Origin: Magnetococcales bacterium
Lineage (GTDB): Bacteria; Pseudomonadota; Magnetococcia; Magnetococcales; UBA8363
Length of the DNA: 64,000 bases
NCBI GenBank assembly: GCA_002753515.1
Contig: PEAK01000011.1
Span: 1-64,000, forward strand
Direction: 5' to 3'
Part shown: one piece after another, positions 7,122 through 41,868 of the stretch
Numbering within the stretch: the stretch's first letter is position 1
How the letters are laid out: the number at the start of each line of letters is the position of its first letter
Translations under genes and position numbers: made by a program
The notes under the pieces: model-generated
Database searches by the model: none
The model's input: only the letters and a program-made list of their open reading frames with translations
What the model was told of the DNA's origin: nothing

Positions 7122-7271
7122 TATACCGAAACCACCTCGGGATACGTAGTTTTCCAGCGTCATTCCCGCGAAAGCGGGAATCCAGAAAGTCAGGGGAGAT
7201 AGGAAAGTCCCCTGGATCCCCGCTTTCGCGGGGATGACAAAAACTACGTATCCCAAAATAGCTGCGGTATA
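7122..7271. mobile_element. 150-bp MITE-like element, copy 1 of 5
   Basis: Exactly 150 bp, starting TATACCG and ending CGGTATA. The ends are imperfect inverted repeats sharing GGGATACGTAGTTTT. Inside are two oppositely oriented GC-rich hairpins of the type CCCGCGAAAGCGGG, each framed by GTCAT and CCAG. Other copies lie at 18516-18665, 33026-33175 and 41719-41868, with a deleted copy at 36875-36970. Terminal TA dinucleotides suggest TA target duplication as in IS630/Tc1-type elements, which is inference. Frames through it give the familiar spurious peptides IPAKAGIQ and FWIPAFAGMT. Confidence 0.8.
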
Positions 7272-18515: not shown

Positions 18516-18665
18516 TAAACCGCAGCTATTTTGGGATGCGTAGTTTTTGTCATCCCCGCGAAAGCGGGGATCCAGAAGATCTTCCTATCTCCCATGACTT
18601 TCTGGATTCCCGCTTTCGCGGGAATGACGCTGGAAAATTACGTATCCCGAGTTGGTTTCGGTATA
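18516..18665. mobile_element. 150-bp MITE-like element, copy 2 of 5
   Basis: Exactly 150 bp from TAAACCG to CGGTATA, 24 bases after the glnD stop. Internal structure as in the copy at 7122: two opposed CCCGCGAAAGCGGG-type hairpins with GTCAT/CCAG borders. Flanking bases are GAATC on the left and ATTAG on the right, with TA at each element end. Confidence 0.8.
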
Positions 18666-18742: not shown

Positions 18743-19030
18743 TCAATGCGACGGGAACAGTTTAAAGACAGTAATGATCAAACCAGATTGAGCTAAAAGG
18801 AGACCAACAATCCATTTGATGGTATCGGCCTTGGATTCAGATATTTCGCGCCAAACTTTCTCAATTTCCATGACTATTTCCTTGATGTCACCTTTGGTGG
18901 CCATCTCCTCCAAACGGGCGTCCCGAACATCGCGAAGAGCGGTCACAACTTCCTCTGCTTGCTGATCACTGAATCCGGCAGATTTGAAACGCTTTGCATA
19001 AGCCAAGGTATCAAACGTAATTGTCATCAT
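18743..19030 (-). CDS. DUF1640-like small coiled-coil membrane protein
   Basis: A 95-residue protein. The N terminus FDTLAYAKRFKSAGF is the hallmark of bacterial DUF1640/CCDC90-like proteins; a charged coiled-coil helix (about 25-65, ARLEEMATKGDIKEIVMEIE) and a single C-terminal membrane segment (IKWIVGLLLAQSGLIITVF) follow. The function of this family in bacteria is not known. The double ATG at 19030/19027 has AGGGAGAG just upstream; the frame remains open to 19090 but that part lacks family similarity. An intact relative is at 37026 and a broken one at 37313 in this window. Confidence 0.75.
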   Translation of the reverse strand: MMTITFDTLAYAKRFKSAGFSDQQAEEVVTALRDVRDARLEEMATKGDIKEIVMEIEKVWREISESKADTIKWIVGLLLAQSGLIITVFKLFPSH

Positions 19031-19263
19031 GGTATCTCTCCCTACAAGGTTACAACCGCACATAGCGTACCACGATATCCTACCAAACAACAGCCAAGAA
19101 TCCCCCTGTGTCGCTCCGGGTTTTCTGGAAATTCGCGTTTTGTCCCTTTCCGAAGGGTCAACAGGTTGACATTGCCCATGGAAAATGACAAACCTGGAGG
19201 TAACGTGACAGATTGAATCGTTTCTTTAGCAAGTACCGATTGTTCACCTCAAGCATGTTAAGG

Positions 19264-23023: not shown

Positions 23024-23052
23024 CCGGTTTGGCTGGCGGGAAGCTTTTCTAA

Positions 23053-23205
23053 TTCTACTTTTTCACATTAGAATATACGCCCTGGATCCCCGCTTTCGCG
23101 GGGATGACAGAGCAGAAAATCCGTTGAAAAAAGGCAACCGTCATCCCCGCGAAAGCGGGGATCCAGAAGCTACAAACGCCGACCTGGAAATGTGACAAAG
23201 TAGAA
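23053..23205. mobile_element. 153-bp MITE-like element with 4-bp target duplication, copy A
   Basis: The element starts TTCTACTTTTTCACATT and ends AATGTGACAAAGTAGAA: terminal inverted repeats of 17 bp with one mismatch. It is flanked by CTAA on both sides (23049-23052 and 23206-23209), a likely target-site duplication. Inside are two opposed CCCGCGAAAGCGGG-type hairpins separated by GCAGAAAATCCGTTGAAAAA. An inverted copy of the same length is at 36704-36856. There is no coding capacity, so any transposition would need an enzyme encoded elsewhere. Confidence 0.85.
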
Positions 23206-23979
23206 CTAAAAGATCCGGACAGCCAGGGACTTCAACACGATCAGGAGTCCTGATCCCGCTGACAGGGTCAGGGCCAAGTTGCGGACACGTTCCCGGTTGA
23301 TGCGGTGGATGGTGCTATTGGAGAGAAGAAATCCCACGATAATGGGGGGGACGAACGACAGTCCCATCAGGATCTCTGCGGCCCCGAAACGCTGGACCGT
23401 GGCCAGGGAGGTCAGGGAGAGGATGATGCCAATGGAGAAGAACGCACCCAGGGTGGCACGCATCCTGGGCCCCGGGGTGTGCTGGTACGCCAGGAGCATC
23501 GGGGGACCACCCGCGGCCGTCATGGTTCCCATGATGCCCGACAGCAATCCCGCCCAGAGCAACAGGCTGGATGAGGGCTGAAAGGGTCGGGTCGTGCCGC
23601 TCAGGAGCGCGGCCAGCACAATGAGCAATCCCATACTGGTTATCAAAATGTCGGCGGGCAAACTGACCATGGCATAGGTTCCCGCCAGGGTGCCGGCGAA
23701 ACGTCCCACCAGGGCCGAGGGGATGTCTGGCCAGTGAACGCCTGCCCGTTCGCGCCACCAGGTCAGTGTGGTGAGGAAAAAAGTGGCCAGCATCAGGGGG
23801 CCGGGTACCAGGGGCGGGTGGATGATGAGAAGCATGGGTGCGGCGATCAGGGCGATGCCAAAACCAATGGTACCCTGTACCAGGGCGCCGATGGCAACGG
23901 CAAACCAGGAGAGGAGGAGTTGTTGCCAGGGGATCTCGGGGAACAGCGCGGCAAGGGAAGGAACGTCGGCGAGACTCAT
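23206..23979 (-). CDS. TSUP family (TauE/SafE-like) membrane transporter
   Basis: A 257-residue membrane protein with about eight predicted segments, belonging to the sulfite exporter TauE/SafE (TSUP) family. The duplicated family motif is seen as GALVQGTIGFGIALIAAPML (about 33-52) and as SGIMGTMTAAGGPPMLLAY in the second half. Substrates of the family are sulfur-containing or organic anions; none can be assigned. Its ATG overlaps the stop of the upstream histidine phosphatase gene by 4 bases. The TAG stop lies within the CTAA target duplication at the edge of the 153-bp element, so the insertion just spared the reading frame. Confidence 0.85.
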   Translation of the reverse strand: MSLADVPSLAALFPEIPWQQLLLSWFAVAIGALVQGTIGFGIALIAAPMLLIIHPPLVPGPLMLATFFLTTLTWWRERAGVHWPDIPSALVGRFAGTLAGTYAMVSLPADILITSMGLLIVLAALLSGTTRPFQPSSSLLLWAGLLSGIMGTMTAAGGPPMLLAYQHTPGPRMRATLGAFFSIGIILSLTSLATVQRFGAAEILMGLSFVPPIIVGFLLSNSTIHRINRERVRNLALTLSAGSGLLIVLKSLAVRIF

Positions 23980-33025: not shown

Positions 33026-33175
33026 CAAACCGCAGCTATCTTGGAATGTGCAGTTATTGTCATCCCCGCGAAAGCGGGGATCCAGAGAACCTTCCTACTT
33101 TCCCTGACCTTCTGGATTCCCGCTTTCGCGGGAATGATGCAGGAAAACTACGTATCCCGCGTTGGTTGCGGTTTA
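33026..33175. mobile_element. 150-bp MITE-like element, copy 3 of 5
   Basis: 150 bp from CAAACCG to CGGTTTA. The left terminal dinucleotide is CA rather than TA, a single change. Two opposed hairpins of the shared core are present. It fills most of the space upstream of prs, so the prs promoter must lie in or beside it. Confidence 0.78.
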
Positions 33176-36689: not shown

Positions 36690-36703
36690 TTGTTTGTAAC
36701 TAT

Positions 36704-36856
36704 TTCTACTTTGTCACATTTCCAGTTCGGAGTTTGTGGCCTCTGGATTCCCGCATTCGCGGGAATGACGGTTACCTTTTTTCAACGGATTTTCTGCTTC
36801 GTCATCCCCGCGAAAGCGGGGATCCAGAGCGTATATTCTAATGTGACAAAGTAGAA
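36704..36856. mobile_element. 153-bp MITE-like element with 4-bp target duplication, copy B
   Basis: Same length as the copy at 23053 but in inverted orientation; terminal repeats TTCTACTTTGTCACATT and AATGTGACAAAGTAGAA are perfect here. It is flanked by CTAT on both sides (36700-36703 and 36857-36860), different from the CTAA of copy A, so each duplication was made at insertion. The two copies agree at most positions, with changes in one hairpin (CCCGCGAATGCGGG) that conserve pairing. Confidence 0.87.
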
Positions 36857-36874
36857 CTATTCAGCCCCCCTACC

Positions 36875-36970
36875 TAAACCGCAGCTATCTTGGGATGCGC
36901 AGTTCTTGTCATCCCCGCGCAAGCGGGGATGACGCTAGAAAACTACGTATCCCGCGCTGGTTGCGGTTTA
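36875..36970. mobile_element. 150-bp-family MITE-like element, internally deleted copy (96 bp), 4 of 5
   Basis: It begins TAAACCG and ends CGGTTTA like the full copies, with the same outer inverted repeats, but only one hairpin remains (GTCATCCCCGCGCAAGCGGG followed by GATGAC). The central 54 bp are missing. It lies 18 bases from the end of the 153-bp element. Outside it, CAGCCCCCC on the left and GGGGGGCTG on the right can also pair, which could make a larger stem enclosing the element. Confidence 0.78.
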
Positions 36971-37025: not shown

Positions 37026-37289
37026 TTAATGTATTTTCAGCAACGCTCCAAGGATGCTGAATCCGACAATCGTAATACCTCCCAAGCGGGTGATAATGCG
37101 GTATTCCATCTCTTTCACATCGCGCCGCAGGTTGTCTTCCAAATCTTTCAAGTCCCGTTTGGTTGCCAACCGCTCTTCGATCAGTTCGGCCATGGCTTCG
37201 GCTTGGACTTCTGCTTGCGCTTCGGTAAAACCTACAGATTTCAATTTTTTTGCATATGCCAGTGTATCAAACGCAATCGCATTGCTCAC
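37026..37289 (-). CDS. DUF1640-like small coiled-coil membrane protein
   Basis: An 87-residue protein of the same family as the gene at 18743: N-terminal FDTLAYAKKLKSVGFTEAQA, a charged coiled coil with RDLKDLEDNLRRDVKEMEYR, and a C-terminal membrane segment (LGGITIVGFSILGALL). I chose the GTG at 37289 because GGAG is 8 bases upstream and the result starts at the same place as its relatives; a GTG at 37298 is open as well. The broken relative lies directly upstream on the same strand. Function unknown. Confidence 0.72.
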   Translation of the reverse strand: MSNAIAFDTLAYAKKLKSVGFTEAQAEVQAEAMAELIEERLATKRDLKDLEDNLRRDVKEMEYRIITRLGGITIVGFSILGALLKIH

Positions 37290-37312
37290 CGGAAACACTC
37301 CTCATCAAGTTC

Positions 37313-37777
37313 CTACCACCCGGAACGTGTCACGATCCTGGACCAAACAGCAATCAATTCTTGGTGGCCTGCCACAATTAGTGCCGTTTGTGCAGCGAAT
37401 ATCCCTACCGTCCATTTGATGGTATCCATTTTGGCGGATTCAATGTCTTTGCGCAATTCAGTTTGCTCGTTTCAATCTTGACATCCAATTCCTTAATATC
37501 CCGCTTAAGATTGGCCTCCACAATGGCCAGTTCTTGCCGGGTGGCCAGACCATCCAAACGGCATTTTATCTGTTGCTCATTGCGATCCGCCAGGGTATCG
37601 AACCTTTCCGTTGCCTGTTTGTCCCGTCTGGCCGCAAGATCATCGACACGGGCATCAACCTGCCGTATGACCGTAGCCAACGCCTTTGCCTGTGCTTCAG
37701 CCTGTGCAGAGGGGGATCCCGGCACTTTCCAGTTCCTTTACACAGGCCAGGGTGTCAAACGGTATGTCGGTACTCAT
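37313..37777 (-). pseudogene. Frameshifted DUF1640-like gene
   Basis: Read from the ATG at 37777 the frame gives MSTDIPFDTLACVKELESAG, the family N terminus, then stops early. The next part continues in another frame as AQAEAQAKALATVIRQ through the coiled coil to DIKELDVKIETSK (about 37720 to 37470). A second shift near 37465 is needed to reach ELRKDIESAKMDTIKW and the membrane segment TVGIFAAQTALIV, ending at a TAG at 37313-37315. All family parts are present in order, so two frame changes have broken an otherwise complete gene. It is next to an intact relative. Confidence 0.7.
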
Positions 37778-41718: not shown

Positions 41719-41868
41719 TAAACCGCAGCCAACACGGGAAACGTAGCTTTCCAGTGTTATTCCCGCGAAAGCGGGAATCCAGAAAGTCAGGGGAAGTAGA
41801 AATGCCCCCTGGATCCCCGCTTTCGCGGGGATGACAATAACTACACATTCCAAGATGGTTGCGGTTTA
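41719..41868. mobile_element. 150-bp MITE-like element, copy 5 of 5
   Basis: 150 bp from TAAACCG to CGGTTTA, with TA at both ends and the two opposed hairpins. It lies between ubiV and ubiK, splitting the ubiquinone genes by 242 bases. Its hairpins may affect read-through into ubiK. Confidence 0.8.

Follow-up and report, generated by a model that had tools for sequence, protein, structure and literature searches.

Several families of MITE are known from bacteria, among them NEMIS/Correia, RUP, Nezha and ERIC (PMC3733652), and the element described here shares with them a length of 70-300 bp, terminal inverted repeats (TIRs) of 15-30 bp, duplication of the target, a capacity to form hairpins and a mostly intergenic location. 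It is unlike them in its probable IS701 parent, for which the evidence is given below, and in having a CGTC REP dimer as its body. CGTC REPs have been described as carrying a CGTC or TGTC tag, a stem of 8-9 bp with AT first, a loop of 4-5 bases and a CCA tail, and as forming head-to-head dimers, of which the neisserial dRS3 is one kind (PMC3733652). The 2013 survey from which this description comes left CGTC REPs without a dedicated transposase and posed the nature of their mover as a question (PMC3733652). The IS701 family was characterised in a 2008 analysis by a length of 1400-1550 bp, ends of the form ---YACT-Y--YR and a target duplication of exactly 4 bp (PMC2266710), the last of which is also reported in PMC6352166.

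The window analysed here is a stretch of 64,000 nucleotides from contig C11 of a Magnetococcales MAG, a draft genome of 4.33 Mb in 134 contigs. It holds two copies of a 153-bp element, with the following features (the basis of each assignment is given in brackets).

23053..23205, + strand: MITE copy 1, 153 bp, subfamily A (window sequence and genome-wide copy comparison)
23049..23052, no strand: left 4-bp target duplication CTAA of copy 1 (window sequence)
23206..23209, no strand: right 4-bp target duplication CTAA of copy 1 (window sequence)
23053..23069, + strand: left TIR of copy 1, TTCTACTTTTTCACATT, one mismatch (mismatch search)
23189..23205, - strand: right TIR of copy 1 (mismatch search)
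23086..23105, - strand: CGTC-type REP palindrome 1 of copy 1, head inwards (definition of PMC3733652)
23143..23162, + strand: CGTC-type REP palindrome 2 of copy 1, head inwards, completing a head-to-head dimer (definition of PMC3733652)
36704..36856, - strand: MITE copy 2, 153 bp, subfamily B, in the opposite orientation to copy 1 (window sequence and genome-wide copy comparison)
36700..36703, no strand: left 4-bp target duplication CTAT of copy 2 (window sequence)
36857..36860, no strand: right 4-bp target duplication CTAT of copy 2 (window sequence)
36747..36766, - strand: REP palindrome of copy 2 (window sequence)
36804..36823, + strand: REP palindrome of copy 2 (window sequence)

An earlier sequence-only reading had described two inverted copies of equal length, each with near-perfect 17-bp TIRs and its own 4-bp direct repeat, and the coordinates, the 153-bp length, the orientation and the CTAA and CTAT flanks are all borne out. 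The TIR of both copies is TTCTACTTTGTCACATT; three ends match it perfectly, and the fourth, the left end of copy 1, has a single mismatch, a T for G at position 23062. Exactly four TIR ends occur in the window at up to 3 mismatches, compared with 0.09 expected by chance. Short, non-coding and bounded by 17-bp TIRs, the element is a MITE.

Both window copies sit between convergent ORFs, and the stop codon of the minus-strand ORF at 23206-23979 lies inside the right CTAA duplication of copy 1, so the end of this gene was left unchanged by the insertion. Avoidance of genes is seen more widely: of 35 insertion points, only 10 lie within an ORF of 120 aa or more, compared with 489 of 600 random points (82%) and 445 of 600 random TA points (74%). 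Selection against gene disruption suffices to account for this, without any target preference. At 18743-19090, 37026-37298 and 37405-37725 the window encodes members of a multi-copy family of small proteins in which a LATKRDxKE-like motif precedes a membrane-like C-terminus; genes of this type also occur in the flanks of L016 and L027, and some MITE copies lie at or in them. The MITE copy in L039 (contig C79), at 1-232, is split by a sequence (ATAGGGGTAGGGAAGAGGTCTCC...) that resembles the end of a group II intron. Hairpins are favoured sites of some group II introns.

The element is present some 40 times genome-wide, partial copies included, and a search for the 17-mer TIR, as the sequence-only reading had proposed, returned 145 matches at up to 2 mismatches compared with one for a reversed control. 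About 32 distinct full-length 153-bp copies can be told apart, 28 of which have a perfect 4-bp duplication. That reading had made its case depend on further copies with independent duplications, and when length variants of 152, 180, 319, 328 and 473 bp are counted with the 153-bp copies, 32 of the 38 complete elements have a perfect duplication. All are NTAN, with an invariant central TA: TTAA occurs 16 times, TTAG 5, TTAT 3 and CTAA 2, with ATAG, ATAA, GTAG, GTAA, CTAT and GTAT once each. The outer two letters agree between the two sides far above what composition would give (P ~1e-7 and 3e-11). The copies fall into two subfamilies, A with copy 1 and B with copy 2, whose consensus sequences differ at 11 positions; within each, copies typically show about 3 differences and several are identical.

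When GTDB genomes were scanned for the exact pattern, the element turned up in the Magnetococcales MAGs nWRX3bin12 and C5_bin.1. The first of these, G001, is a close relative, and we queried it with the flanks of each copy joined and one duplication removed. Four exact empty sites were recovered, at copies with the duplications ATAG, TTAG, TTAA and GTAA, each with a single tetranucleotide and 91-96% identity; additional loci are also empty with small changes, and one copy is apparently common to both genomes (the left flank of the L153 copy adjoins an element in G001 contig C155). Empty sites in related strains had been named beforehand as something to look for. Together with the many copies and their diverse NTAN duplications, they strongly support transposition rather than recombination, and the 153-bp repeats are gene-less transposons that have transposed recently. 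It could be argued that they are fossils, once mobilised and inert today, given that the contigs hold no intact transposase gene and that a few copies have diverged (26 differences from consensus in L054 and 16 in L149). Against this stand the several identical copies at different sites, the insertions missing from G001 and the many near-identical full-length IS ends at contig breaks, and we consider the elements unlikely to be inert.

The parent of the family had been left between an IS5-group insertion sequence, with its YTAR target, and something else. The 4-bp duplications as such, and TTAA, CTAA and TTAG among them, would fit an IS5-group origin. However, G and A occur at the first position too, and T at the last (GTAG, GTAA, ATAG, ATAA, TTAT, CTAT, GTAT), so that the targets as a whole are not YTAR, and a search for a transposase gene bordered by the same ends led elsewhere. 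Two other Magnetococcales genomes hold elements bounded by the same 17-bp ends, one of 1529 bp with perfect TIRs and the duplication ATAG (G045:C102:3674-5202) and one of 1525 bp (G013:C6:3457-4981). Each has one long ORF between its ends, and the proteins score 339 and 346 bits, respectively, against the NCBIfam model NF033540 for IS701 transposases (cut-off 150) and also match Pfam DDE_5. Further, the TIR, TTCTACTTTGTCA, matches the published IS701 end consensus at every specified base, and its 4-bp duplication agrees with the value for that family (PMC2266710). Because the same ends bound IS701 genes and both TIR and duplication fit IS701, we have dropped the IS5 suggestion, which now seems highly improbable. 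Compared with the IS701 family, then, the MITE has the end consensus ---YACT-Y--YR and the exact 4-bp duplication in common (PMC2266710), and the transposase of that family is encoded by the 1.5-kb elements that have these 17-bp ends. It differs in being non-coding and 153 bp long, and in clearly sharing only the ends.

These clearest full-length parents belong to another family of Magnetococcales, and their interior is unlike that of the MITE. In the source genome the autonomous partner is visible as partial ends only, including an IS701-like C-terminus. Numerous contigs break off some 121 bp inward of such TIR ends, as expected if a multi-copy insertion sequence collapses in assembly. One end type, E1, encodes EVVRQLEERHRKRQISIDLAYIKQ; the peptide that it encodes, EVVRQLEERHRKRQISIDLAYIKQRVTQESASG, is close to EVVRQMENRHKKRQHSIDHAYHKQ, the peptide of a relic in G004 which matches the C-terminus of IS701 transposases by blastx. 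In G005, a relic that has the matching start end codes for RFVGF, an N-terminal motif of IS701. The MSGADPP reading frame found near IS start ends is probably not the transposase start; in that relic it is short and lies upstream of the IS701 N-terminus. Sequence comparison gave no tie to IS701 for the right-hand end type E2 of the source genome. Protein and HMM searches found no intact IS701 transposase gene in the contigs of the source genome or its genus; weak matches at C75:5-202 in the source genome (E 0.002) and in G005:C51 have no convincing TIR nearby. The missing gene presumably reflects assembly collapse of a multi-copy element.

We therefore regard the 153-bp element, with considerable confidence, as a non-autonomous MITE that is mobilised in trans by IS701-family transposases and has a REP dimer as its body. 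IS701-family transposases in the same cell would recognise the 17-bp ends in trans, and insertion would follow at NTAN by a 4-bp staggered cut. The ends would be the sole part clearly common to MITE and parent, with the body riding along, and the element would serve as a vehicle for REP hairpins, delivered mostly outside genes. An IS701 transposase of the source genome itself would be the likely mover, by a cut-and-paste or a copy mode. As an IS701-type MITE the element is new but of a familiar sort, and what sets it apart is its carriage of REPs. Our search of open-access papers returned nothing relevant on IS701 MITEs, Magnetococcus MITEs or Magnetococcales insertion sequences. The novelty of the family itself is provisional, because this search covered open papers.

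The REP dimer at the core, overlooked by the earlier reading, is the more interesting feature of the element. It consists of the palindrome GTCATCCCCGCGAAAGCGGGGATCCAG and its inverse with their heads facing each other, and compared with CGTC REPs, including the neisserial dRS3, it has the CGTC/TGTC tag, an 8-bp stem starting with AT, a 4-base loop, the CCA tail and the head-to-head arrangement (PMC3733652). The two halves can pair as one long hairpin (RNA fold -77.9 kcal/mol, z = -11.9). An effect of this hairpin on transcript ends is plausible, and it might also bring some benefit or harm to the host.

We surveyed CGTC REPs in 862 kb of the source genome, made up of the window and 40 further stretches, and found 64 clusters. 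For 61 of them, one or more of three element families have an end within 75 bp, compared with about 2% of random places. Among the remaining three, one is a family-2 element that is truncated where its stretch stops, another is a family-2 element in which an arm has changed, and the last is a chance match that sits in apparent coding DNA. All four genuine clusters in 220 kb of G001 likewise lie inside such elements; no REP clusters were found in 180 kb of G006. Essentially all CGTC REPs of this lineage are carried by its MITE families. The REPs of the 2013 survey were mostly untied to other repeats (PMC3733652), whereas in the present case almost every cluster falls within an element bounded by TIRs.

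Family 2 is commoner than the 153-bp family (family 1), is 146-147 bp long with ends AACCGCA(A/G)C(C/T)A, and has its REPs tail-to-tail. TA is found on both sides of 39 of its 44 full copies in the 862 kb, with YTAR preferred. The window holds five copies, one of them a short form.

7124-7269: family 2
18518-18663: family 2
33028-33173: family 2
36877-36968: family 2, 92-bp short form
41721-41866: family 2

In source contig C84 an end of family 2 adjoins the C-terminus of an IS630-type (DDE_3) transposase at the contig break, and in G006 an end likewise lies beside the C-terminus of such a transposase. A second relative in the source genome, in contig C108, lacks the end. The third family is rare and has the ends TTGATCATCGTTTCG, which also bound REPs.

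L220:18673-18836: third family
L247:6662-7397: third family, enclosing a tandem array of 11 REP units
L238:13310-13453: third family
L210:4167: third family

It might be supposed that the REP clusters were multiplied by recombination or by a REP-specific enzyme, with the TIRs incidental, since the body of the 153-bp element is a CGTC REP dimer and arrays with extra REP units occur. Fixed length, fixed ends, 4-bp duplications and precise empty sites all speak against this, as does the presence in the same genome of a second family with the same kind of core but TA duplications, from which it follows that the ends, not the REPs, set the target. We give this explanation very little credence. Families 1 and 2 are also mutually nested and so each supplies empty sites for the other: family 2 has inserted at the TA of TTCTAATGTG in family 1, with the TA duplicated (L219:5414, L235:5893), and family 1 has inserted in family 2 (L028, L006).

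Returning to REPs as cargo of transposons, we tentatively suggest, as a possibility somewhat short of an even chance, that CGTC REPs spread as the cores of MITEs, with unrelated DDE transposases (IS701, IS630 and probably that of the third family) each having acquired a REP dimer as cargo. The dimer may be favoured since its hairpin joins the transposon ends or protects the element. The same carriage may exist in other REP-rich bacteria in which the outer ends have decayed, and there the question of the REP mover can be tested by looking for decayed TIRs or duplications around REP dimers. In the present lineage the sequence answers the question posed in 2013, as REPs sit inside MITEs with differing ends and duplications, for which the links are to IS701 and IS630. 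For the study of an IS701 MITE the 153-bp family is a clean system: its copies number in the dozens, empty sites are at hand and two families are mutually nested.
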